Of a stretch of DNA of 64,000 bases, positions 1,642 to 51,175 are shown one piece after another. The notes below the pieces were generated by a model. That model ran no database searches. It was not told where the DNA came from and saw only the letters and a program-made list of their open reading frames with translations. The DNA is from Pseudomonas bijieensis. Lineage in GTDB: Bacteria > Pseudomonadota > Gammaproteobacteria > Pseudomonadales > Pseudomonadaceae. The translations under genes were made by a program, and so were the position numbers. The stretch covers positions 4,587,501 to 4,651,500 of the forward strand of contig NZ_CP048810.1 of the NCBI RefSeq assembly GCF_013347965.1, written 5' to 3'. How positions within the stretch are numbered: position 1 is the first letter of the stretch; each line of letters begins with the position of its first letter.

Positions 1642-3237
1642 TCATGGGTTTTTCAGGCGTTCGGCCAGGGCCGTCGCCAATTGCGCGGTCAGCCCGTACA
1701 CCGATAATTGTGGGTTGGCGCCGATGCTGGTGGGGAACAACGAGCCGTCATGGATCGACAGGTTGGCCAGTTGGTGATGGCGGCCCAGGCTGTCGGCGAC
1801 GGCGCTTTGCGGGTCTTCACCCATGGCGCAGCCACCCATCACGTGGGCACTGCCCAGGCGCGTGCGGTACAAGACCAGGTCAAGCCCGTCGATCAGCGTG
1901 CGGGCTTCGGCCAGGGTCTTTACGTAGCGAGCATCGCTGTGCAAGGGCATGACGGTCTTGGCGCCGCCGGCAAACTGGATCTCGGCCATGCTATGGAAGG
2001 CCCGACGCAAGCCATCCCAGGCATACGGTGAAACGGAGTAGTCGAGCACCGGCGTGCCATCGCTGCGCAACTCGACGCTGCCGCCTGGGCTATCCGGATG
2101 AAAACCGTCGCGCAACAGCGCCAGCATGGCGTGGGTATGGGGCAGCCGGGACATGTGCAAGGCGTTCTCGGGGCCGTAACCGCCCAATAGTGTGGCGGCG
2201 AGGGCCGGGTGCAAGGGCGGGACTTCGAGCTTGTAGGACATTTTGCCGGTGGTTCCGTCCTGCCATTGGAAATGATCCGAATAAATCGATTGCGGCGCAC
2301 CGTAGAACGGGTTGATGACCTCGTCGAATTGCCCGGCGGACATGTTCACTAAGTGCAGGAACGTGCGCTTGCCCAAGCGTTCATGCGGGTCCGGCGCATC
2401 GGAGTGCAACAGCAGGCCCGGGCTGTTGATGCCGCCGCCCGCCAGCACGTAATGCCGCGCCTTGACGGTGATGCGCCGCCCGGTCGGTGCTACGCAACGT
2501 TCGTCCATGGCTTGGCACTCGAGGCCGATGACGGCATCGTTTTTGATCGTCAGGCGCTCGGCCCGCGCCAGGTAAAGCAGCGCGCCACCCTTGTCCAGCG
2601 TGGCCGGGATGGTGGTGACCAGCATCGACTGCTTGGCGTTGGTCGGGCAGCCCATGCCGCAATAGCCCAGGTTCCAGCAACCGCGTACGTTGCGTGGGAT
2701 AACGTGCCAGGCGTAGCCCAATTGTTCACAGCCTTTGCGGATCACGTCGTTGTTGGCGTTGGGCGGAACGAGCCACGGTGCCACGCCCAGGCGTTGTTCC
2801 ATCTGCTCGAACCAGGGCGCCATCTCGGCGGGGCCGTGGCCCTTGACGTTGTGCTCGGCAGCCCAGTGGTCGAGGGTCTGGTCGGGCGTGCGGAAGCTGG
2901 AGGTCCAATTGATCAGCGTCGTGCCACCGACGGCACGGCCCTGGAGAATGGTGATAGCACCGTCCTTGCTCATGCGCCCGAGGCCTTCCTGATACAGGCT
3001 GCCATAGGCCTGGTCTTCGAGCAGCTTGAAGTCATGGCTGGTCTTGAGTGGACCTTCCTCGATCAGCAATACCCGGTAGCCGGCGGCGCTGAGGATTTCC
3101 GCCGTGGTGCCGCCACCGGCACCGCTACCGACGATTGCCACGTCCGCTTCCAGGCTCAGGTCCTGGGTCAACTGCGCGCCGTTGTAGGTGGTCCAGCCAC
3201 GGGCCAGGCCTTCGCGGAAGGGATCGGGGACGGACAT
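1642..3237 (-). CDS. laoA: GMC-family FAD alcohol dehydrogenase (LaoA-like)
   Basis: A 531-residue GMC oxidoreductase. The FAD dinucleotide fold is VAIVGSGAGGGTT (GxGxxG at residues 37-42), GRAVGGTTLIN follows near residue 100, and the C-terminal GMC signature has HVMGGCAMG and then SIHDGSLFPTSIGANP, which holds the active-site His/Asn region. By synteny it is LaoA, the long-chain alcohol dehydrogenase of the P. aeruginosa laoABCR system (PA0364-PA0367), oxidising alcohols released from alkanes or alkyl sulfates. An AACAATAA motif (3250-3257, minus strand) directly precedes an AAGAGG ribosome site, which suggests Hfq/Crc control. A REPIN separates it from laoB, so co-transcription is likely but not shown. 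Confidence 0.88.
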   Translation of the reverse strand: MSVPDPFREGLARGWTTYNGAQLTQDLSLEADVAIVGSGAGGGTTAEILSAAGYRVLLIEEGPLKTSHDFKLLEDQAYGSLYQEGLGRMSKDGAITILQGRAVGGTTLINWTSSFRTPDQTLDHWAAEHNVKGHGPAEMAPWFEQMEQRLGVAPWLVPPNANNDVIRKGCEQLGYAWHVIPRNVRGCWNLGYCGMGCPTNAKQSMLVTTIPATLDKGGALLYLARAERLTIKNDAVIGLECQAMDERCVAPTGRRITVKARHYVLAGGGINSPGLLLHSDAPDPHERLGKRTFLHLVNMSAGQFDEVINPFYGAPQSIYSDHFQWQDGTTGKMSYKLEVPPLHPALAATLLGGYGPENALHMSRLPHTHAMLALLRDGFHPDSPGGSVELRSDGTPVLDYSVSPYAWDGLRRAFHSMAEIQFAGGAKTVMPLHSDARYVKTLAEARTLIDGLDLVLYRTRLGSAHVMGGCAMGEDPQSAVADSLGRHHQLANLSIHDGSLFPTSIGANPQLSVYGLTAQLATALAERLKNP

Positions 3238-3278
3238 GTTTGGGGCCTCTTATTGTTATAAGTTTAGCGATGAAGATC

Positions 3279-3372
3279 CCTGTGGGAGCGAGCCTGCTCG
3301 CGATGGCGTCGGATCAGTTGCGTCTGTATTGACTGACACACCGCAATCGCGAGCAGGCTCGCTCCCACAGGG
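3279..3372. repeat. REPIN between laoB and laoA
   Basis: Inverted pair of REP cores (plus-reading at about 3281-3304, minus-reading at about 3346-3370) with a short unique loop. It lies in the 149-bp gap between two genes that should be in one operon, so it may act as an mRNA stabiliser or attenuator that sets laoA dosage. Confidence 0.9.
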
Positions 3373-3386
3373 TTTGGATGTGACTG

Positions 3387-3932
3387 TTAAACCGTTGGCG
3401 GCCCTGGATACCCGCAATGCGCCCAGGCCTCGGGTCGGCTGTACCAGGCCATCATTACCAGTTGCAGCAACGAACTGTGGCCTTGGCGCAGCAGGTCCAG
3501 CGAACTGTTTTCCCACCGCCCGAGGAACTGGCGGATGGCGTCGCTGCTGGCGTTTTCCCACGAAACCCAGACCCCGGTCAGTGGCCCGCGGGTGATGCCC
3601 AGCGTGAGCACGTCGAACAGCTGGTGCGTGAGCTTGAGCATCGCGGGGGACAAGTGAGCCAGGCCGCTGTCCAGGCTTCGCAGGGTCGCGTCAGTGGCGG
3701 TTGGGATTTGTCCGACGGCCACTGCGCCGTCCAGCAGCACGGGGATGATGCTGCGTAAAAATGGCAGGTCGCTGTCGCGCAGGACCGTCAGGCCGTTGGC
3801 CGGTTGGCTTGGCGAACAACCGCTCAGGCTGGCGCCCAGGCCGACAGTGGTCAGGAAGGCGCTGGCGCCGAGGCTGAATTTCAGCAGGCCGCGTCGTGAC
3901 AGCGTGGGTGTATCGATGAGGCTTGGGTTCAT
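3387..3932 (-). CDS. laoB: Tat-exported lipoprotein-like partner subunit (LaoB-like)
   Basis: A 181-residue protein of the gluconate 2-dehydrogenase subunit 3-like / Tat-signal family, which pairs with GMC dehydrogenases. The N-terminus has a twin-arginine signal (SRRGLLKFSLGAS, Arg at about 13-14) followed by a hydrophobic stretch and LSGC, a good lipobox, so the mature protein may be a periplasm-facing lipoprotein. In the lao system LaoB is needed for LaoA function; the Tat signal may carry the folded LaoA-LaoB complex across the membrane, since LaoA has no signal of its own (inference). The start at 3932 is preceded by AATAACAATA on the minus strand. Confidence 0.85.
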   Translation of the reverse strand: MNPSLIDTPTLSRRGLLKFSLGASAFLTTVGLGASLSGCSPSQPANGLTVLRDSDLPFLRSIIPVLLDGAVAVGQIPTATDATLRSLDSGLAHLSPAMLKLTHQLFDVLTLGITRGPLTGVWVSWENASSDAIRQFLGRWENSSLDLLRQGHSSLLQLVMMAWYSRPEAWAHCGYPGPPTV

Positions 3933-42400: not shown

Positions 42401-45386
42401 CAGCGATGAGTTTTTCCGGCAAGCGCAGCTCGCCCACGAAGCACTGATCGACATGCTCGATCAGCTGGCGGCCGGGCAGCATGTGCATGCGCAGCCGGAA
42501 CGGGTCCAAGCCCTGCGCCGCTTGCTCCAGGAGAGCCTCGACCCATCGGCCACCGGCCTGATCCGTAGCGATGGTAGCCGGACCCTGAGCATCCGTGAGC
42601 TGGGCCAAGCAACAGCGGAAATGGAACGCGCCGCGCCCGCCGATACCTCGGTGGAGGATGAGCTGGCGTCGATTTTCCTCGAAGAGGCCCAGGACATCCT
42701 CGAAAGCGCTGCCCAGGCCTTGCAGCGCTGGTTGGCCGATCCGGATAACGGCGCGCCGCTGTCCTCGCTGCAACGTGATTTGCACACCCTCAAGGGCGGT
42801 GCGCGCATGGCCGACATCCGGCCGGTGAGCGACTTGGCCCAGGAACTGGAAAATCTCTACGAAGGGCTGGTGGACCGCCGTTACAGTTACAGCGAGGAAC
42901 TGGCGCAACTGCTCGAAAGCAGCCACGAACGCCTCGACCTGTTGCTTGGACAGTTGCAACAGGGCCAGCCGTTGGGCGATCCCGTGGCGCTGATCGACGC
43001 CATACGACGGTTCCGCCAGGACAAGCCTAACGCCATCGAGACGAGCGCAGCGAACCAGGCCGACGGTGCTGGTCATGATCCCGAGCTGCTGGAAATCTTC
43101 CTTGAAGAAGGTTTCGATATCCTCGACAGCTCAGGCGCGGCGCTGCTGCGTTGGCAAGAAGAACCGTCGAACCGCCAGGCAGTGGAAACCCTGCTGCGGG
43201 ACTTGCACACCCTCAAGGGCGGTGCGCGCATGGTGGAAATCGTCCCCATCGGCGACTTGGCCCACGAGCTGGAAAACCTCTACGAAGGCTTGTCGGCGGG
43301 CCTGCTTCAGCCGACACCGGCGTTGTTCACCTTGCTGCAGAGCAGCCATGACCGTCTGGCGCAGATGCTCGACGCGGTGCGCGCCGGCCACCCGTGCCCG
43401 CTGGCCGACCGGCTGATCGCGCAGATCCAGGCGGTGAATCATCCCCAGGAGAATGCTGCGCCGCAGGCTGTCGCGGCGCCGGAGCCGGCCCCCGTCTCCA
43501 ATCCCATCGTGAGCCCGCCGGCGGCGCCCGCAAGACCTGACCCTGGTGCCCCGGGCGACGGGGCGGACATGGTCAAGGTCTCCGCCGAACTGCTCGACGA
43601 CCTGGTGAACCTGGCGGGCGAAACGTCGATCTTCCGTGGGCGCATCGAACAGCAGGTCAACGACGCGCGCGTGGCCCTCGGCGAAATGGAAACCACCATC
43701 GAGCGCATGCGCGATCAGTTGCGGCGCCTGGATACCGAAACCCAGGGGCGAATCCTCAGCCGTCAGCAGGTGGAGGCCGAGCGCCTGGGCTACGAAGAAT
43801 TCGACCCGCTGGAAATGGACCGCCATTCCCAGTTGCAGCAGCTGTCCCGGGCGCTGTTCGAGTCCGCCTCGGACTTGCTCGAACTCAAGGAAACCCTTGA
43901 TCGCAGCAATCACGATGCCGAGGTCTTGCTGCAACAGCAGGGGCGCATCAACACCGAACTCCAGGAAGGCCTGATGCGTACGCGCATGGTGCCGTTCGAG
44001 CGAATGTTGCCACGGCTCAAGCGCATCGTGCGGCAAGTGGCGCAGGAACTGGGCAAGGACGTGGAGTTCGTGGTCGGCAACGCCGATGGCGAGATGGACC
44101 GCAACGTGTTGGAGCGCATGGCCGCGCCTTTGGAGCACATGCTGCGCAACGCCGTCGACCATGGCCTGGAGCCGGCCGATGTGCGCATTGCCGCTGGTAA
44201 ACCGGCCCGGGGGCGCATCAGCCTCGACCTGTCCCGGGAAGGCGGCGACATCATTTTCGACATCCGTGACGATGGCGCCGGCGTGCCGCTGGAGGCGGTG
44301 CGGAGCAAGGCGATCAAGCGTGGCCTGTTGGCGCCGGACAGTGACATCAGCGACCGCGACGTGTTGCAGTTCATCCTGCAACCGGGGTTTTCCACCGCGG
44401 AAAAAATCACCCAGATCTCCGGGCGCGGCGTTGGCATGGACGTGGTCCACGAAGAGGTGCGGCAACTGGGCGGCAGCATGGGCATCGATTCCACGCCGGG
44501 GCAGGGCGTGCACTTTCGCATTCGCCTGCCGTTTACCGTGGCGGTCAACCGGGCGCTGATGGTGCAGTGCCATGAAGACCAGTACGCGATTCCGCTGAAC
44601 ACCATCGAAAGCATCGTCCGGGTGTTGCCCGCCGAACTGGACGGCTATTACCAGCTCGATTCGCCGACCTACACCTACGCCGGGCAACGTTATGAGTTGT
44701 GCTACCTCGGCGAGCTGTTGAAAACCGGCGCCCGCCCGAAACTACTGGGCCAGAGCCAACCGTTGCCGGTGCTGCTGGTGCAGTGCAACGAGCGGCACGT
44801 CGCCGTGCAAGTGGACGCGACCGCCGGGACCCGGGAGATCGTGGTCAAGAGCCTGGGTCCGCAATTCTCGGCGGTGCAGGGCCTGTCCGGGGCGACGATC
44901 CTGGGAGACGGCCGGGTGGTATTGATCCTCGACCTGCTGGCGCCCATCCGTGCCTTGCCCCACCAGGTCCCGCGCCGCCCGACAGCGACGCAAGGGGAGG
45001 GCGAACACCAGCGGCCGTTGCTGGTGCTGGTGGTGGACGACTCGGTGACGGTGCGCAAGGTCACCAGCCGCTTGTTGGAGCGTCATGGCATGCACGTGCT
45101 CACCGCCAAGGATGGCGTGGACGCCATGGCGCTGCTGGCCGAACACTCCCCGGACCTGATGCTGCTGGACATCGAAATGCCGCGCATGGACGGCTTCGAA
45201 GTGGCCACCCAAGTACGCAACGACCCGCGTCTGGCGCACCTGCCGATCATCATGATCACCTCCCGCACCGGCCAGAAACACCGCGATCGCGCCATGGCCA
45301 TCGGCGTCAACGACTACCTGGGCAAGCCGTACCAGGAATCGGTGCTGCTCGACAGCATCGCGCACTGGAGCAAGACCCATGCATGA
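39441..45386 (+). CDS. chpA: Multi-phosphotransfer chemosensory kinase ChpA
   Basis: A 1981-residue CheA-type hybrid kinase. Four canonical Hpt sites of the form HTLKG are visible with His at 672, 810, 1115 and 1256. A further module between the second and third has Thr952 in place of His (LTTLGEGAHLADLRPV against LHTLKGGARMADIRPV). An N-terminal HQVHGG (His49) may be a degenerate site. Then come the dimerisation segment (about 1375), kinase N box LRNAVDHGLE (about 1568), DDGAGVP, GRGVGMDVV, a CheW domain, and a receiver with phospho-Asp1910. PAO1 ChpA is longer (2472 residues, more Xpt modules). It overlaps chpC by 8 bp. Confidence 0.95.
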   Translation: MVMGDRHDYVALEWVKGEIAETLKQAHLALNRLVDDPQASDALGQCLACIHQVHGGLQMVEFYGAALLAEEMEQLCAALQDNRVTHRDEAISLLSQALGQLPIYLDRVQGARRDLPLVVLPLINDLRSARGESLLSETSLFSPELPEIAPLSDEALQRLEPADLPNTLRKLRQTLQMALVGLLREQDDTTHLGYLAKVFHRLETLCAGAPLNALWQVASALVEGMRDGRIANSPALRSLFKEADKELKRLLEQGMPGINQPAPPHLLKSLLFYIAKAEHPSGQMQIMKERYSLDDALPDSAMVDEERARLAGPDRDAMRSVLAALCEELVRVKERLDLFVRSDRQHASELDSLLAPLRQIADTLAVLGFGQPRKVIIDQLAVVLSLAQGQREPDDATLMDVAGALLYVEATLAGMVGTVEPESREDTHLPTTDLTQIHQIVIKEAHTCLQQAKDMIVDYIDADWNSEQLLPLPALLTQVRGALAMIPLSRAASLVEACNAFIRDHLLLEQAQPGWEELDHLADVITGLEYYLERLSEDPETPGEPLLDGVERSLAALGYFPDEARVPVLDDVLSPNEAQVMQDLQELDDPQTVQSLAEVLASPVSAVNPPARSTPGSLLPPPMDENPVDDELREVFLEEADEVLDVLREYLPRWSAHPDDPVALGELRRAFHTLKGSGRMVRALVLGELAWAVENLLNRVLERSVEPQASVRQLIEATVQLLPDLVTEFAANRQRQRDDVDRLAARAHVLAKGGDEDDEDEQDVAALDPLLLKIFDNEAQGHLASLNRFLDQAADHLPLQASDELQRALHTLKGSASMAGVLPIAELAGAMDELAREYRAHLIALDLDEVELLMEAEGLLRRGLRQLHSEPLAAIPGATDLIQRAQALLAERLRAANSAPDKALRTKRDPQLINNFLAQGMDILLDAESLLQRWQQHPGEGQELSALLDELTTLGEGAHLADLRPVDELCEALLDLYGAVEESSLAVSDEFFRQAQLAHEALIDMLDQLAAGQHVHAQPERVQALRRLLQESLDPSATGLIRSDGSRTLSIRELGQATAEMERAAPADTSVEDELASIFLEEAQDILESAAQALQRWLADPDNGAPLSSLQRDLHTLKGGARMADIRPVSDLAQELENLYEGLVDRRYSYSEELAQLLESSHERLDLLLGQLQQGQPLGDPVALIDAIRRFRQDKPNAIETSAANQADGAGHDPELLEIFLEEGFDILDSSGAALLRWQEEPSNRQAVETLLRDLHTLKGGARMVEIVPIGDLAHELENLYEGLSAGLLQPTPALFTLLQSSHDRLAQMLDAVRAGHPCPLADRLIAQIQAVNHPQENAAPQAVAAPEPAPVSNPIVSPPAAPARPDPGAPGDGADMVKVSAELLDDLVNLAGETSIFRGRIEQQVNDARVALGEMETTIERMRDQLRRLDTETQGRILSRQQVEAERLGYEEFDPLEMDRHSQLQQLSRALFESASDLLELKETLDRSNHDAEVLLQQQGRINTELQEGLMRTRMVPFERMLPRLKRIVRQVAQELGKDVEFVVGNADGEMDRNVLERMAAPLEHMLRNAVDHGLEPADVRIAAGKPARGRISLDLSREGGDIIFDIRDDGAGVPLEAVRSKAIKRGLLAPDSDISDRDVLQFILQPGFSTAEKITQISGRGVGMDVVHEEVRQLGGSMGIDSTPGQGVHFRIRLPFTVAVNRALMVQCHEDQYAIPLNTIESIVRVLPAELDGYYQLDSPTYTYAGQRYELCYLGELLKTGARPKLLGQSQPLPVLLVQCNERHVAVQVDATAGTREIVVKSLGPQFSAVQGLSGATILGDGRVVLILDLLAPIRALPHQVPRRPTATQGEGEHQRPLLVLVVDDSVTVRKVTSRLLERHGMHVLTAKDGVDAMALLAEHSPDLMLLDIEMPRMDGFEVATQVRNDPRLAHLPIIMITSRTGQKHRDRAMAIGVNDYLGKPYQESVLLDSIAHWSKTHA

Positions 45387-45861
45387 TTTGCATCTTCATC
45401 AGCGCACCAGCCCACTTACCGGCCTGCTGCTGCCATTGGCCGACCGGCACCTGGTGTTGCCCAACGTGGCCGTGGCCGAACTGATCGACTACCAGAGCAG
45501 CGCATTCGATATGGACACCCCGCCATGGTTCCTGGGCTGGGTGAGCTGGCGCGAACGGCAAATCCCGCTGCTGAGCTTCGAGTCGGCCTGCGGCCAGAAA
45601 ACCGTGGTGGGCGAGCGAGCACGCATCGTCGTGCTCAACGCCCTCGGCGGGCGCCCGGAGTTGCGGTTCATTGCGCTGTTGGTGCAAGGCATCCCGCGCT
45701 CCTACAAGCTCGACAGTCAGTTGAGCTACGTCGACGTGCCGTTGTGCGGGTTGGAACAGGCGGCGGTGCAAGTGGGGGAGCATGTGGCGAAAGTGCCGGA
45801 TTTGTTGGCGTTGGAAGAGTTGGTGATGGCTGCGGGCTTGATTCAACCTCACACAACCTGA
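45379..45861 (+). CDS. chpC: CheW-like protein ChpC
   Basis: A 160-residue CheW-domain adaptor. TGLLLPLADRHLVLPNVAVAEL, WFLGWVSWRERQIPLLSFE and RIVVLNALGG follow the CheW pattern. In P. aeruginosa ChpC connects extra inputs to ChpA. In PAO1 a methylesterase gene (chpB) lies between chpA and chpC; here the two overlap, so chpB was lost or never present. The cluster ends here; chpD and chpE are not seen. Confidence 0.92.
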   Translation: MHDLHLHQRTSPLTGLLLPLADRHLVLPNVAVAELIDYQSSAFDMDTPPWFLGWVSWRERQIPLLSFESACGQKTVVGERARIVVLNALGGRPELRFIALLVQGIPRSYKLDSQLSYVDVPLCGLEQAAVQVGEHVAKVPDLLALEELVMAAGLIQPHTT

Positions 45862-45879: not shown

Positions 45880-45905
45880 GTGGGAGCGAGCTTGCTCGCG
45901 ATGGC
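45880..45905 (+). repeat. Single REP sequence after chpC
   Basis: One core, CTGTGGGAGCGAGCTTGCTC plus GCGATGG, without an inverted partner. It marks the boundary between the Pil-Chp cluster and the accessory islet. Confidence 0.85.
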
Positions 45906-45921
45906 GGCCTGGCAGTCGGCT

Positions 45922-46262
45922 AGGGTTTTGTTGATTGAGTACATATCCATTGCTGCGGTAACGGCGACTTAGGGGGCCGCCCTGACGGCGGGTCACTTTC
46001 GAAAAGCCGGAATGCCGGCCCAGGCGAAAGTAACCAAAGCGCTTTTGCCCCACCACTCGGCACCTCGCCTAGGCTCGGTGTGCCCTCATTCCGGCATTGC
46101 TCCGTGGGCTGCCGCGAAGGGCCATCCATGGCCCAGCGCGGCTAACCCGGCATCCATGCCGGGTTGCCCACTCCACAATGCCTGCGTTCGGCCAGCGTGG
46201 TTAATGGAGCGCCAAAATCTATGTCCACTGCGAGGCGGCCTAATAGCCGACCTGGTTTTGGG
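45922..46262. repeat. Long structured repeat, copy 1
   Basis: About 340 bp, matching 47989-48311 in the same orientation. Hairpins: CCGCC-CTGAC-GGCGG (about 45977-45991), ACTTTCG/CGAAAGT (45995-46001 and 46025-46031), GGGCCAT/ATGGCCC (about 46119), and a perfect 10-bp AACCCGGCAT/ATGCCGGGTT (46144-46153 and 46156-46165). Two pairs change in a compensatory way between copies. I recognise it as a type of long intergenic repeat common in fluorescent pseudomonads but cannot name the family. No coding frame is convincing; from 46263 to 46385 I see nothing. Confidence 0.85.
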
Positions 46263-46385
46263 CGACCGCGTTCCTCCTGTGGGAGGGTATTTCAACTTGA
46301 AACTCGGGGTGCCGAAAGCCCGCGGCGAGGGAATTGGCTCCGCTGGGTAAAAACCTCCGCAAGCCAGGCGACCGTTCTTGAGTTT

Positions 46386-46895
46386 CTATTTATCGGGAAC
46401 TCGCACAACCTCGATGTTATCGAGGTCAAACTTACGGGACACTCCGGGCTCTGCGGCATTCGTACCGATCACGATATGGGCCTTGGTACCAGAGTAGCGA
46501 ACGCCGATGGGATCAGTTTGGAGCCACACACCGGTTGGCGTGTTCGGATCTATATAGAAGGCGTTATAACCCAGCGATACGTTCGCTGTAACAATGACCC
46601 TGATCGTTGTGGCTTCCCCCGCCTCCGGTGGGTGAACTCTGTATCTGAAGGAGGTAAAAAGAAAACCTTTCTCCGGTTTTGGGTCATCCTGCCTTGGGCC
46701 CGGAAAGGTAAACATCTTGGCGAGAGAGGGCAGGAATATGTTTGGAGGCCTGTACTCCAGCTTGCCGGACCAGAAAGTATTCTTGCCCCCTGGGCCTTCT
46801 TCCGATTTGAGTACCCCATCCGGGGACCCAATGTCATTTTCCCAGCCGTTGCGTTTTCCATCTTGAAAGTCGTGCCCATACTTGTCGTGGTTCAT
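46386..46895 (-). CDS. Unrecognised small protein, paralogue A of the islet pair
   Basis: A 169-residue protein without signal peptide or TM helix. It starts MNHDKYGHDFQDGKRNGWEN after GGCGGGAGAAACAGC, so the longer frame (to 46946) is not used. It shares with paralogue B the N-terminal DF....RNGWEN, then NTFWSGKLE, K(M/K)FTF, F(R/N)YRVH, IGT and a C-terminal (F/I)D(L/I)DNI. The beta-rich pattern ending in xDNIxV recalls carbohydrate-binding jelly-roll domains that open with DFExGxxxGW, but that is only a resemblance. Function unknown. A conserved palindrome lies 100 bp before the start. Confidence 0.7.
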   Translation of the reverse strand: MNHDKYGHDFQDGKRNGWENDIGSPDGVLKSEEGPGGKNTFWSGKLEYRPPNIFLPSLAKMFTFPGPRQDDPKPEKGFLFTSFRYRVHPPEAGEATTIRVIVTANVSLGYNAFYIDPNTPTGVWLQTDPIGVRYSGTKAHIVIGTNAAEPGVSRKFDLDNIEVVRVPDK

Positions 46896-46995
46896 GCTGT
46901 TTCTCCCGCCACAGCGCTTGTGATCCTGCCCGAGGAGTCCGGGCATTGAAGATCGCGGCGCAACCTATTCGGCGATGAGGCCGGTGGGTTGGCTA

Positions 46996-47011
46996 CTGTC
47001 AGGGTTGACAG
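46996..47011. promoter_or_regulatory. Conserved palindrome upstream of paralogue A
   Basis: CTGTCAGGGTTGACAG, a 6-bp dyad with a 4-base centre, lies 100 bp before the start of paralogue A. The identical 16 bp occur at 47771-47786, 100 bp before paralogue B, inside a longer match (GGCTACTGTCAGGGTTGACA). Its outline (TACTGT-N8-ACAG) resembles a LexA box, although the centre is more GC-rich than normal. Confidence 0.65.
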
Positions 47012-47097
47012 GTTAGAGCTGCAATCCGACAAACGGCTGCGTATGGGAAGAGCTGCTTGAGGGCCGCTTCGCTCATTCGAATGCAATCACATGACGC

Positions 47098-47155
47098 TTT
47101 GCGGGAGCGAGCCTGCTCGCGAAGGCGAAGTGTGCCGCCATCGCGAGTTACCTTG
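47098..47155. repeat. Degraded REPIN in the islet
   Basis: A near-complete core (TGCGGGAGCGAGCCTGCTCG) at about 47099 is followed by a truncated inverted half (CCATCGCGAG) at about 47139. It lies between the two paralogues. Confidence 0.75.
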
Positions 47156-47178
47156 AGGGGGGCCCAGATTTATCTGCA

Positions 47179-47670
47179 CTAGGTCTGTTTCCAAACATAG
47201 ATATTATCGATATCTATTCGACGAGATCTTGTCTCGGATATACCGCCACGCGTGCCAATCTGAATTATTTCGTTTGACCGCGCGAACCACTGGTTGGGGG
47301 TCGTCTCCGTCGTCGCCAGCAGCCATTTGTCTACTTCAGTGTTCTCATCCAAATCGTTATCTAAATTGAAGGAGGTTCTTGGGTTCCCCATGGCGATCGC
47401 AAGAACAAGGAGTCTTGCCTCGTCATCTTCGAGTTTATGGACACGATAATTAAAGGATATACAGTACAAATCGGTTCTTTCTTCTTTGGTCTGAAACGTG
47501 AATTTTTTCTTCAGAGATGCTCTGAAGGTCGGAAAGGAGACTAGGGGCTTCAGTTCACCTTTCCAGAAAGTATTCCCATCTACGGTAATAAGTTCTCCTG
47601 TGATTTCTTCGCCATTTTCCCACCCATTTCGCCCATTCGATTCGAAGTCAGTTTCATCAGGAAATTTCAT
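47179..47670 (-). CDS. Unrecognised small protein, paralogue B of the islet pair
   Basis: A 163-residue protein, no signal peptide or TM helix, diverged paralogue of the 46386-46895 product. I start at MKFPDETDFESNGRNGWENG (47670) because GGAG precedes it and its N-terminus then aligns with paralogue A. It ends RIDIDNIYVWKQT. Base composition stands out: the 60 bases from 47461 contain 22 G/C in a GC-rich chromosome, so recent horizontal transfer is likely. The frame extends 19 codons further to a TTG with no ribosome site. Function unknown; a jelly-roll-like fold is a guess. Confidence 0.7.
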   Translation of the reverse strand: MKFPDETDFESNGRNGWENGEEITGELITVDGNTFWKGELKPLVSFPTFRASLKKKFTFQTKEERTDLYCISFNYRVHKLEDDEARLLVLAIAMGNPRTSFNLDNDLDENTEVDKWLLATTETTPNQWFARSNEIIQIGTRGGISETRSRRIDIDNIYVWKQT

Positions 47671-47770
47671 ATTGATGTCTCCGGTCATTTGCGCTGTCGA
47701 CCAGCCCTTGAAACCGGACATAAACAATCGCAGCAGGGTTTAGTAGGCGTCGGAGAGGACTGCTTGGCTA

Positions 47771-47786
47771 CTGTCAGGGTTGACAG
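47771..47786. promoter_or_regulatory. Conserved palindrome upstream of paralogue B
   Basis: Second copy of CTGTCAGGGTTGACAG, 100 bp before the paralogue B start, the same spacing as at paralogue A. Downstream of it the two promoters still align without gaps for about 35 bp (CGCC.A.TA....GC.GCGAT....ATG.CCGG, minus strand), which indicates a duplicated promoter. Confidence 0.65.
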
Positions 47787-47850
47787 GTCGAAGCGGTTAA
47801 CCGACAAGCGGTTTCGGTCAGCCCGATCAAAGCTTCTATACCAGCGCTAA

Positions 47851-47968
47851 GCCTTGGAGCCGTTTTCCAGACAACTGAGCTGGGCGTTCGTCTACGGCTC
47901 CATTGCCAAAGGCCAGGCCAACGCATCCCAGTGACATGGATCTCCTGCTGATCGGCGAAGGCCTGTAG
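47851..47968 (+). pseudogene. Nucleotidyltransferase (MNT-type) remnant
   Basis: In one frame the DNA reads ALEPFSRQLSWAFVYGSIAKG, QANAS, then a stop; one frame over it continues SDMDLLLIGEGL and stops. Together these make the GSxAKG...SDxDLLxIG core of minimal nucleotidyltransferases, the type found in MNT/HEPN and AbiE-like modules. A frameshift sits near 47928-47931 and both ends are missing. No start, ribosome site or HEPN partner is visible. Confidence 0.75.
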
Positions 47969-47988
47969 CCGACGATCCGGTGGGAGCA

Positions 47989-48311
47989 GGATTTTGTTGG
48001 CTGAGTACATATCCATTGCTGCGGTAACGGCGGCTTATGGTTCCGCCCTTACGGCGGCTCACTTTTGAAAAGCGCAAAAGTAAGCAAATGTATGGCCCCA
48101 CCACTCGGTGCCTCGCTTAGGCTCGGTGTGCCCTCACTCCGGCATTGCTCCGTGGGCCCGCCGCGAAGGGCCATCCATGGCCCAGCGCGGCTATCCCGGC
48201 ATCCATGCCGGGATGCCCACTGCGCAATGCCTGCGTTCGGCCAGCGTGGTTAACGGGGCGCCGAAATCAACGTCCACCGCGAGGCGGCCTGACAGCCGGC
48301 CTGGCTCTTGC
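47989..48311. repeat. Long structured repeat, copy 2
   Basis: Direct repeat of 45922-46262, bracketing the paralogue module. Hairpin ACTTTTG/CAAAAGT (48061-48067, 48075-48081) replaces copy 1's ACTTTCG/CGAAAGT, and ATCCCGGCAT/ATGCCGGGAT (48193-48202, 48205-48214) replaces AACCCGGCAT/ATGCCGGGTT, so pairing is kept. It ends at a run of 11 G (48312-48322). From there to 48643 only REP sequences are recognised. Confidence 0.85.
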
Positions 48312-48352
48312 GGGGGGGGGGGTACACCCATCAGACCTGTTTGGGCTGGACC

Positions 48353-48515
48353 TGTGGGAGCAAAGCTTGCTCGCGAAGGCGGTGGCACATTCAGCATTGA
48401 TGCAATTAGCCCCACCGCTATCGCGAGCAAGCTTTGCTCCCACAAGATTGGCGGTGGGCACTGATCTTATAAACGACCGAAACCAGTGTGGGAGTGAGCC
48501 TGCTCGCGATGGCGG
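48353..48515. repeat. REPIN plus single REP in the islet
   Basis: An inverted pair of GTGGGAGCAAAGCTTGCTCG-type cores (about 48354-48377 and 48420-48444) is followed by a lone GTGGGAGTGAGCCTGCTCG core at about 48488. Three cores within 160 bp. Confidence 0.85.
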
Positions 48516-48677
48516 CCTGACAGCCGACCAAGCGTTGTGGGAATGGTCGGACACACTTCCTGACTCAAGTTGATTTTTCCGACGAGCTCTGGCGGTTGCC
48601 GGGTGGGAAGGGCTGTCGCTAGTCTTTTCCCGTCGCTGCAAATTCAGCGGCCGGGCTTGGAAATCCGATAAGTAGAC

Positions 48678-48858
48678 GGCGCGAAAGCGCCCTTCATAAC
48701 GTATGCTTGCGGTCGTTTTTTGACCATGCTTTCGTTATGGCAGCTGTGCGCGGGAGACCTTCGGGTCTGCCGGGCTCGTTTACCCCGGTTTTCCAACCTG
48801 CGTACGGCTGCCACCCCCTCGCTTGGAAACGAACGTGGCAGCTCCAACCAGTAAACGG
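48678..48858 (+). ncRNA. Candidate structured leader RNA of the DUF6124 gene
   Basis: Hairpins in order: GGCGC-GAAA-GCGCC (48678-48691, GNRA loop), GGTC/GACC (48711-48725), AGACC-TTCG-GGTCT (48755-48768, UUCG loop), GCTGCCAC/GTGGCAGC (48807-48814, 48835-48842), and a long-range CGTTTAC/GTAAACG (48777-48783, 48851-48857) that ends at the GGAG ribosome site (48857-48860). Similar leaders precede DUF6124-type genes in other pseudomonads as far as I recall. It may control translation or be a processed RNA. Confidence 0.55.
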
Positions 48859-48869
48859 AGTGTCACCCT

Positions 48870-49226
48870 ATGTTCAAAGCCACACCCAATCCTCCCGAAA
48901 CCGATCCCACCTCAGCCCATGCCGGCCAAGCTTCGCAAAAGCTTGATGAAGCGGCCGAGCGCGCCCTCAGTTTCTATCTCGATCCCAAACCTCAAACCAA
49001 AAAGAAACAACCCCCAGGCCAACTGTTCACTGTCGTGGATGACCTCGACAGCGAATGCCTCCTGTCCAACCTCAGCGAAACCCTCGCCTCCGCCAATGTC
49101 ATGCTCAACGAGCTGGCTTTCGACCTTGAAGGTTCGCCCCGGCATTTTGCCCTCGGCATTCAGCAGATGATCGAACTCAGCGAGTTGCTGGCCCATCGGG
49201 CGCTGGATATTGTCGACCCGCGCTAA
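48870..49226 (+). CDS. DUF6124 (formerly DUF3077-type) family protein
   Basis: A 118-residue soluble protein. A polar N-terminus (MFKATPNPPETDP) and a DEAAERALSFYLDPK segment lead to LFTVVDDLDSECLLSNLSETLASANVM (in parts), which looks helical, ending SELLAHRALDIVDPR. This pattern matches the small Pseudomonas-specific DUF6124 family, often present in several copies per genome, function unknown. The ATG follows GGAG by 9 bp. The long hairpin-rich leader is the notable part. Confidence 0.78.
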   Translation: MFKATPNPPETDPTSAHAGQASQKLDEAAERALSFYLDPKPQTKKKQPPGQLFTVVDDLDSECLLSNLSETLASANVMLNELAFDLEGSPRHFALGIQQMIELSELLAHRALDIVDPR

Positions 49227-49385: not shown

Positions 49386-49504
49386 GATTTGTGTTTATCG
49401 CAAACCATTACTCCAATCGTAACGATCCGCCGCTAAGCTTGATTGATACCCTCGCCCCAACACTCCTAATGTGACCCCCACGACAGCGAACCCGTGGAGT
49501 GGTC

Positions 49505-51175
49505 ATGACAACAACAATATCCCCCGACTCGCGCTGGACGCGGCGGCGCGGCGAAAAGCAGCGGCGTCTCGAGCTGGTGAAGGGGCTTGCCGACGGTGTG
49601 GTGTTGCCCACCGACAAAATCGTTGCGGCGTTGGAGGCGTTGATCCTGCCTGGCGACCGTGTGGTGCTGGAGGGGAACAACCAGAAGCAGGCGGATTTTC
49701 TGTCGCGCTCGCTGGCCAAAGTCGACCCTTCGAAGCTGCACGATCTGCACATGATCATGCCCAGCGTCGGCCGCTCCGAGCACCTGGATCTGTTCGAACG
49801 CGGCATCGCCCGCAAGCTGGATTTTTCCTTCGCCGGCACCCAGAGCCTGCGCATCAGCCAGTTGCTCGAAGACGGTCTGCTGGAGATCGGCGCGATCCAC
49901 ACCTACATCGAGCTCTATGCCCGACTGGTGGTGGACCTGATCCCCAACGTGGTGCTCTCGGCCGGTTTCATGGCCGACCGCGCCGGCAATATCTACACCG
50001 GCCCTAGCACCGAAGACACTCCGGCGCTGATCGAACCGGCGGCCTTCAGTGACGGTATCGTCATTGTCCAGGTCAACCAGTTGGTGGACGACGTCAGTGA
50101 CCTGCCTCGGGTGGATATCCCGGCCTCCTGGGTCGATTTCGTGGTGGTGGCCGACAAGCCCTTCTACATCGAGCCGTTGTTCACCCGCGACCCGCGCCAC
50201 ATCAAGCCTGTGCACGTGCTGATGGCGATGATGGCGATTCGTGGGATCTACGAAAAACACAACGTCCAGTCCCTCAATCACGGCATCGGTTTCAACACCG
50301 CCGCCATCGAGCTGATCCTGCCGACCTACGGCGAATCCCTCGGCCTGAAGGGCAAGATCTGCCGCAACTGGACCCTCAATCCGCACCCGACCCTGATCCC
50401 CGCCATCGAAAGCGGCTGGGTCGAAAGCGTGCATTGCTTCGGCACTGAGTTGGGCATGGAAAACTACATCGCCGCCCGTCCCGACGTGTTCTTCACCGGA
50501 CGCGACGGCTCGCTGCGCTCCAACCGCATGGTCTGCCAACTGGCCGGGCAGTACGCGGTGGACCTGTTCATCGGCGCCACTCTGCAAGTGGATGGCGACG
50601 GTCATTCCTCCACCGTGACCCGTGGCCGCCTGGCCGGCTTCGGTGGGGCGCCGAACATGGGGCACGACCCGCGCGGTCGTCGTCACGGCACGCCGGCCTG
50701 GCTCGACATGCGTCACGGCGACGGCGAGGCACCGCTGCTCGAACGTGGCAAGAAGCTGGTGGTGCAGATGGTCGAGACGTTCCAGGAGGGCGGCAAACCG
50801 ACTTTCGTCGAGACCCTCGACGCGGTGGACGTGGCGAAGAAGGCCGGCATGCCCCTGGCGCCGATCATGATCTATGGCGACGACGTCACCCACCTGCTGA
50901 CCGAGGAAGGCATTGCCTACCTGTACAAGGCCCGCTCCCTGGAGGAGCGCCAGGCGATGATCGCCGCCGTGGCCGGGGTCACCGCCATCGGCCTGCGCCA
51001 CGACCCGAAAGATACCGCGCGCATGCGCCGCGAAGGGCTGATCGCCCTGCCCGAAGACCTCGGTATCCGCCGCACCGACGCCACCCGCGAACTACTCGCG
51101 GCCAAGAGCGTGGCAGATCTGGTGGAGTGGTCCGGTGGCCTCTACAACCCGCCCGCCAAGTTCAGGAGCTGGTAA
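49505..51175 (+). CDS. mdcA: Malonate decarboxylase subunit alpha (acetyl-S-ACP:malonate ACP transferase)
   Basis: A 556-residue subunit that swaps acetate for malonate on the ACP subunit MdcC, the first step of biotin-independent malonate decarboxylation. It has RRRGEKQRRLELVKGLADG, GDRVVLEGNNQKQADFL, the CoA-transferase-like NVVLSAGFMADRAGNIYTGP, and SRVSRGRLAGFGGAPNMGHDPRGRRHGTPAW-like glycine loops (VTRGRLAGFGGAPNMGHD here). The ATG follows GTGGAG; a GTG two codons earlier is possible. AACAACAA (49510-49517) overlaps the start region, a candidate Hfq/Crc site. First gene of mdcABCDEGH-madLM. Confidence 0.96.
   Translation: MTTTISPDSRWTRRRGEKQRRLELVKGLADGVVLPTDKIVAALEALILPGDRVVLEGNNQKQADFLSRSLAKVDPSKLHDLHMIMPSVGRSEHLDLFERGIARKLDFSFAGTQSLRISQLLEDGLLEIGAIHTYIELYARLVVDLIPNVVLSAGFMADRAGNIYTGPSTEDTPALIEPAAFSDGIVIVQVNQLVDDVSDLPRVDIPASWVDFVVVADKPFYIEPLFTRDPRHIKPVHVLMAMMAIRGIYEKHNVQSLNHGIGFNTAAIELILPTYGESLGLKGKICRNWTLNPHPTLIPAIESGWVESVHCFGTELGMENYIAARPDVFFTGRDGSLRSNRMVCQLAGQYAVDLFIGATLQVDGDGHSSTVTRGRLAGFGGAPNMGHDPRGRRHGTPAWLDMRHGDGEAPLLERGKKLVVQMVETFQEGGKPTFVETLDAVDVAKKAGMPLAPIMIYGDDVTHLLTEEGIAYLYKARSLEERQAMIAAVAGVTAIGLRHDPKDTARMRREGLIALPEDLGIRRTDATRELLAAKSVADLVEWSGGLYNPPAKFRSW

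Follow-up and report, generated by a model that had tools for sequence, protein, structure and literature searches.

A dispersed, probably lux-box-type operator ahead of two paralogous genes of Pseudomonas bijieensis, and its likely reader

How do two small genes standing side by side in a bacterial genome come to carry the same palindrome at the same distance ahead of their start codons, what might read such a signal, and what else might obey it? The genes in question, which we call A and B, lie in a stretch of 64,000 nucleotides of Pseudomonas bijieensis (contig NZ_CP048810.1, positions 4,587,501 to 4,651,500). This whole stretch is the window in what follows, its coordinates are the ones used for A and B, and the genome it comes from is G000.

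We argue that A and B belong to a dispersed regulon with an operator of the lux-box type, and that the likely reader of this operator is a LuxR solo (a receptor without a signal-making partner gene in G000) encoded in the slot beside fpr. Taken as one claim, and resting as it does on the comparison of sequences, this seems to us likely, if well short of certain. The argument turns on these features:

46386-46895, minus strand: gene A, 169 amino acids, an all-beta protein modelled as a CBM/MAM-like jelly-roll, with no Pfam or NCBIfam match
46966-46972, minus strand: putative -10 region of A, +21 to +27 after the box, from a 41-site promoter alignment
46993-47013, minus strand: lux-box-like site of A, ACCTGTCAACCCTGACAGTAG, with the palindrome at 46996-47011, from motif searches and homologue loci
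47179-47670, minus strand: gene B, 163 amino acids, a diverged paralogue of A, modelled in the same fold class with lower confidence
47741-47747, minus strand: putative -10 region of B, from the same 41-site alignment
47768-47788, minus strand: lux-box-like site of B, ACCTGTCAACCCTGACAGTAG, with the palindrome at 47771-47786, from motif searches

The palindrome and the motif around it

A preliminary description of this DNA took A and B for diverged paralogues with an identical palindrome 100 base pairs (bp) before each start, and on both counts it was right: the proteins are 35% identical across 167 columns (pairwise E 2e-14), and the palindrome, CTGTCAGGGTTGACAG, is separated from the ATG by exactly 100 bases in both cases. 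Longer frames extend upstream of these two ATGs, which match the starts in most homologues and have, by eye, a GGAG-type ribosome site ahead of them. If three mismatches are allowed, chance would supply 0.59 matches in the window, and two are reached by 11 of 100 shuffles; both observed copies are exact. The gap-free alignment of the two promoters that had also been claimed holds for 25 identical bp around the palindrome (ACCTGTCAACCCTGACAGTAGCCAA) and is weak further out, where ungapped identity amounts to 46/100 downstream and 23/40 upstream; a repeat finder returns one 53-bp pair at 81%.

The palindrome forms the central part of a longer motif of 21 bp, ACCTGTCANNNNTGACAGTAG, which occurs exactly at seven places in the whole genome and, with up to two mismatches, at 19 distinct places (21 rows, two self-complementary places appearing twice), against 0 + 1 for the reversed control. 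Among 298 Pseudomonadaceae genomes, the exact motif is found at 123 sites in 44 (control, 0), and all 44 lie within the genus group to which the window belongs (44 of its 103 genomes, 0 of 195 outside). In its wider form, the motif reads CTGTCA-N4-TGACAG with conserved ACC and TAG flanks, the core frequently being GATC, which completes the inverted repeat. The exact motif also appears in three stretches of viral contigs, a collection for which we have no chance expectation.

Does the site go with the genes, or is it a common repeat that happens to lie near them? One scan of named genomes for homologues of A and B yielded six loci (Pseudomonas sp. K18, two strains of P. gingeri, P. batumici, P. 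fluorescens ISL-33 and P. thivervalensis), and in all six, a box with zero to two mismatches ends 96-100 bp before the start. (At L082, the script-chosen start fell inside the leader, and we used the homologous start, with a gap of 96; at L084, the P. batumici locus, the box has two mismatches, beyond the limit of the script, and the ATG is at 497, with a gap of 100.) Both P. gingeri A8002 and P. thivervalensis have tandem pairs of the family with a box for each member, and the first P. thivervalensis member (L087) is 85% identical to B, with a one-mismatch box of its own. The second (L087:2977-3303) has a frame that ends early, at 108 amino acids, though similarity spans 3001-3467. The motif is dispersed and yet precedes the homologues of A and B at a near-constant spacing. 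Like the preliminary description, we regard the palindrome as a site under selection, and it is probably regulatory.

Lux-box layout and probable promoter geometry

What kind of site might it be? The first suggestion was a LexA operator, with A and B as damage-inducible effectors. The outline CTGT-N8-ACAG does fit such a site, but what is conserved is the longer form with its flanks, and the core of the LexA site in Pseudomonas is A/T-rich. LexA itself is, to our knowledge, near-universal, whereas the exact site is absent from 59 of the 103 genus genomes. Nor did we recognize an SOS gene downstream of the box, either at the 19 places in G000 or at 29 loci in other genomes (inspected by eye, with 23 proteins checked against Pfam). 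Add to this a copy of the motif in a luxI promoter and a distribution that tracks a LuxR gene, both described below, and it is unlikely that the motif is a LexA box; as an account of A and B, DNA damage is very improbable.

The layout that the motif does have is that of a lux box: a 20-bp inverted repeat with a CT-N12-AG core, ACCTGTCANNNNTGACAGTA, at each of the 123 exact sites. Published lux boxes, as described in the portions of two papers available to us, are 20 bp long and centred at -42.5 (PMC7585371, PMC3376562). When 41 non-redundant box sites are aligned, the second base after the box is C in 85%, and at +26, the fraction of A or T is 0.88 and that of T is 0.73; in a 50-site alignment, the AT-rich, -10-like patch covers +22 to +27, again with T at +26. 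Neither the AT patch nor the T column of the 41 sites was reached in any of 2000 shuffles. If the T at +26 is read as position -7, the centre of the box would fall at about -43.5, some 43 bp ahead of the transcription start.

In genome G265, the exact motif stands between divergent luxR and luxI genes (the pair at L070:2421-3845; also L103), with 55-58 bp between it and luxI according to which start codon is taken; Pfam assigns the pair PF03472 (9.6e-28) and PF00765 (1e-25).

Could the box simply be a mobile or repetitive element that regulates nothing? The motif is dispersed, and A and B lie between direct repeats (63-150 bp, 88-94% identical), as one might then expect. Against this, the sequences flanking the box vary among loci, while the box, the C at +2 and the -10-like region are kept, and the same order and distance of box and gene recur in all six loci with homologues (four named Pseudomonas species and sp. 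K18). We find this explanation hardly credible.

On the lux-box reading, A and B would be switched on together with the rest of the dispersed regulon. A LuxR-type dimer would bind ACCTGTCA-N4-TGACAGTAG, with the middle of the site some 43 bp ahead of the transcription start, and would recruit RNA polymerase there (class II activation). In G000, the dimer would most likely be that of the PpoR-like (subgroup A) solo encoded between fpr and rlmG, and because no luxI was found in that genome, the solo would answer N-acyl-homoserine lactones (AHLs) from neighbours or some other ligand.

A LuxR solo beside fpr as candidate reader

If a LuxR protein reads the box, which one is it? Our survey of LuxR proteins is one of PF03472-bearing proteins, and G000 has two. 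A PF00765 search finds no luxI in G000; the same search is positive in 23 of 298 genomes but in 0 of 14 named controls. The first LuxR is encoded outside the window, between fpr and rlmG (G000:C1:5112919-5113671), and has both the PF03472 domain (2.3e-23) and PF00196, or GerE (2.7e-17). The second is PipR-like and is encoded between two proline iminopeptidase-like genes (G000:C1:3286168-3286980).

The two differ sharply in how their distribution compares with that of the box. Over the 103 genus genomes, a PpoR-like match (E 1e-50 or better) and the exact box occur together in 39, the LuxR alone in 3, the box alone in 5 and neither in 56 (p 2.6e-19). The corresponding counts for the PipR-like control are 16, 5, 28 and 54 (p 1e-3), and when only the 61 genomes of at least 5.5 Mb are considered, the PipR-like association is gone (p 0.56), whereas the PpoR-like one is not (p 1.8e-8). 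With a full-length PipR-like match in only 16 of the 44 box genomes, PipR is disfavoured as the reader on distribution. More broadly, one may imagine that the box is read by some LuxR other than the one beside fpr, be it a PipR-like solo or a LuxR without an autoinducer domain. G000 does carry the PipR-like solo, a different LuxR adjoins the exact box in G265, and the association with the slot gene is partly one of shared ancestry; set beside the distribution of PipR, these points leave such a reader improbable in our judgment, without making it negligible.

A closer look at the slot itself sharpens the comparison. We took the stretch adjoining fpr from all 103 genus genomes (a rlmG-like match is present in 95 of them, including G000) and searched it with a profile of the DNA-binding domain. 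A LuxR-type gene occupies the slot in all 44 box genomes and in 15 of the 59 box-less ones; 43 slots are empty, and the exact box is found in none of those 43 genomes. (The slot of G261 lies at a contig end, with 650 bases, and is excluded from this count; the Fisher test, p 1.7e-16, counted it as empty.) Where the slot holds a full-length LuxR of the usual kind, the exact box is present in 39 of 41 genomes, and a box within one mismatch is present in all 41. Where the LuxR has a recognition helix of the P. putida type, the figures drop to 1 and 3 of 10. A search at up to one mismatch covered eight of the 43 genomes with an empty slot and found no box in any of the eight, of which three are close relatives by fpr identity (G226, 89%; G132, 86%; G185, 84%); each of 17 slot-bearing genomes has 3-14 such sites. 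Of the 27 other genomes with an fpr at least 84% identical to that of G000, 22 have both the slot LuxR and the exact box, 2 have the LuxR only and 3 have neither (p 0.003).

Of the 17 slot-bearing genomes with matches, 9 (G137, G252, G253, G260, G264, G267, G277, G278 and G297) share a variant with a single mismatch, ACCTGTAATTTCTGACAGTAG, which recurs at most four times per genome and is possibly a second conserved class of target.

The candidate is no stranger. PpoR, PplR and the other subgroup A solos of fluorescent pseudomonads occupy the same slot between fpr and rlmG (for PpoR, the available part of one paper gives the context as fprB-ppoR-rlmG; PMC10134790), and like them, the G000 slot protein combines PF03472 with GerE and has no luxI that we could find. 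In a survey from 2021, subgroup A is present in almost all fluorescent Pseudomonas species analysed, and for the one protein tested there, direct evidence of gene targets and of AHL binding was not found (PMC8546723); PplR, according to the portion of a more recent study that we could consult, binds several AHLs, and promoter and gel-shift tests are called for there (PMC11543582). In the Protein Data Bank, the best sequence match of the slot LuxR is QscR of P. aeruginosa (3szt, E 4.8e-33), and by eye, the two proteins align in the residues that line the AHL pocket. QscR comes from a different setting: P. aeruginosa belongs to another GTDB genus group, and outside the window's group, the exact box is missing from all 195 genomes. 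The accessible text of the same recent study calls QscR an orphan LuxR (PMC11543582). PipR and PsoR (subgroup C) are resembled by the second G000 solo, with its proline iminopeptidase-like neighbours, and differ in a distribution that does not match that of the box.

What speaks against assigning the box to the solo in the fpr slot? There are several such points, and they deserve to be set out together. On a tree of rlmG from 95 genomes (eight without a rlmG match in the fetched stretch are left out), the slot gene switches state 4 times and the box does so 9 times, which gives two well-supported independent pairs (four in all), none of them contrary; with so few pairs, a sign test has no power and cannot reach 0.05. 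The distance between DNA-binding domains correlates with the dialect of the box core (Mantel r 0.39 over 43 of the 44 box genomes, G087 being omitted for want of a rlmG match), but the partial correlation falls to 0.138 (p 0.028), the recognition helix alone gives p 0.066 and relatedness keeps 0.268; domain and dialect covary mostly via relatedness and weakly otherwise. No such box lies within two mismatches near the slot LuxR gene itself. G270 has a helix of the P. putida type and yet one exact box; G188 and G271, which have shortened slot LuxRs, have no box within one mismatch; and neither does G135, from outside the genus, with the sole outside PpoR-like match of its strength (38% identical). 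Of 29 luxI loci fetched, just one (L103) has the exact box and one more (L101, in G264) a 3-mismatch copy before luxI; the remaining 27 have no box ahead of luxI at up to four mismatches, the only match, at L111, lying past the luxI match. Finally, the responders reported for PpoR and PplR are of other kinds than the genes preceded by the box, as far as the accessible portions of the reports go: over-expressed PpoR altered metabolic and ribosomal genes of P. putida on microarrays (PMC2703642), and RNA-seq found 84 genes of P. plecoglossicida responding to the loss of PplR, flagellar and DNA-binding functions among them (PMC11543582). The P. putida-type slot LuxRs differ from ours in their helix and mostly lack the box, which would fit a different operator in those bacteria.

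The scarcity of independent events also lends something to the idea that the palindrome belongs to a regulator outside the LuxR family, whose distribution tracks the LuxR of the fpr slot by coincidence; the binding of a LuxR to the site is, after all, a prediction. Such a coincidence would also have to account for the 20-bp lux geometry, the GATC cores, the placement near -43 and the exact copy in a luxI promoter, and we give it little credence. The best-supported reader is the PpoR-like LuxR solo of subgroup A in the fpr slot. Because independent events are few and the covariation comes mostly from relatedness, we call that assignment likely and nothing stronger.

The proposed regulon, its genes and its meaning

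What would such a reader control? Among the open reading frames downstream of the box in G000 are those for a trypsin-like protease, a cold-shock protein, a protein whose autochaperone domain is of the autotransporter type and giant proteins carrying Ig-like (Big_6) or RCC1 repeats, along with a weak match to SET. Elsewhere, the products include cold-shock proteins, two enzymes (one of the GH3 family, one resembling saccharopine dehydrogenase), an RHS-repeat protein and proteins in which no known domain is recognized. The box lies a median of 83 bp before the start (10-90% range, 57-107; 48 pairs, with two places counted twice), distances that are not independent of the range searched, because starts were picked by a score of our own (length, ribosome site and ATG, with a ribosome-site score of at least 4) within 20-200 bp. 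There is an apparent hot spot at G000:C1:1515488-1542765 (L011, L012 and L027), where five boxes, three of them exact, fall in 27 kb ahead of three proteins of 1196-2075 amino acids, one of at least 469 and one of 273.

A and B look like accessory members of this LuxR-solo regulon. Searches of both against Pfam, NCBIfam and PHROGs returned nothing significant (a DUF892 match to B at E 0.093 was taken as noise), and neither did a profile search of the Protein Data Bank, which reached a carbohydrate-binding module (3acf) only at E 2.5. Their predicted structures are jelly-roll beta-sandwiches of the carbohydrate-binding type, with a fold like that of CBM22, CBM4, CBM27 and MAM domains; the AlphaFold2 model of B has a predicted local distance difference test score of 74.0 and a predicted TM-score of 0.75, and Foldseek matches it to CBM4 at E 7.3e-5. 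The earlier guess that the pair is lectin-like is therefore upheld at the level of fold, and we observed nothing that points to a bacteriocin, the other guess. Unlike the CBM families, A and B have no sequence match in Pfam or NCBIfam and stand alone, without an enzyme domain and, by eye, without a signal peptide. If the models are a guide, their probable role is to bind sugars or to serve as accessories in adhesion or as accessory effectors.

A profile search for the family gave 34 proteins, 29 of them like A and B and 5 of a 139-amino acid kind; a source names the organism for 13 of the 34, and it is Pseudomonas every time. The 139-amino acid protein of G000 (L021, near G000:C1:1833290) has an exact box and similar end motifs but shows weak kinship with A and B (BLASTP gave no match; in profile comparison, 46% probability and E 2e-4 over 52 columns). 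It was included by eye in the family alignments, is one row in both structure alignments and was part of the search profile, and the five matches of its kind (P0030-P0034) are its own subfamily.

The surroundings of A and B are as follows:

45379-45861: CheW-like gene, on one side of the locus
48870-49226: DUF6124 gene, on the other side
49499-51175: gene for the alpha subunit of malonate decarboxylase, past the DUF6124 gene

Because a CheW-like frame also adjoins, by eye, the P. batumici member of the family (L084), the genomic place of A and B may be old. B had been described as AT-rich, and so it is (44.3% G+C), but it is not alone in this: A has 52.7%, and the window has 62.8%. The direct repeats on either side of the locus, at 45922-46255 and 47988-48304, consist of pieces of 86, 63 and 150 bp, and each side contains a match to the TwoAYGGAY RNA (46111-46165 and 48154-48218, both on the minus strand). 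A C4 antisense RNA (48733-48818, plus strand) and its a1/b1 target family (48619-48671, plus strand) lie just ahead of the DUF6124 gene. No tandem repeats were found at the locus, and no plasmid match of near identity was found to window positions 45880-48620.

One group of relatives deserves separate mention. In a clade of eight genomes (support 100 in a quick tree), the fpr slot holds shortened LuxR genes:

L117-L122, L151 and L185 (genomes G216, G222, G273, G287, G250, G257, G271 and G188): shortened slot LuxR, or its helix-turn-helix domain only

Counted between stop codons, their open frames measure 84-190 codons. The helix-turn-helix domain lies 382-668 bases from fpr in the six that were measured vs. 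813-952 in three full-length cases. Two of the eight retain part of the ligand domain (32% identity over 62-65 residues), of which no remnant was found in the other six. The exact box is present in four of these genomes, and a box within one mismatch is present in six, with cores such as TTTC and CTTC. It is tempting to imagine that the fpr-slot solos of fluorescens-type pseudomonads run a shared, fast-changing regulon of stand-alone lectin-like proteins, Ig-like giants, small cold-shock proteins and apparently secreted proteins and that this clade lost sensing and became independent of the signal, the box being kept in six of eight. We offer this tentatively; it may well be wrong.

In the literature that we searched (for the operator strings, PsoR, PpoR and LuxR-solo regulons), we found no description of this operator, and since few subscription papers were covered, its absence is unproven. 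The parts available to us of PMC7683790 and PMC12175535 do not name it, and the studies of the P. putida group, in the portions seen, list responding genes and name no operator (PMC2703642, PMC11543582).

What, then, would all of this mean for these bacteria? The recurrence of the box suggests a hidden network of genes under a receptor for which G000 holds no partner gene to make the signal. With its 123 exact sites spread over 44 genomes, the 21-bp operator amounts to a concrete list of targets, and control by these receptors is therefore directly testable. It gives small, uncharacterised genes such as A and B a place in a signalling network, and the clade with shortened receptors is an example, supplied by nature, of how a receptor sheds its sensor domain; if our proposal for that clade is true, a circuit built for listening would have turned signal-independent while its wiring survived.

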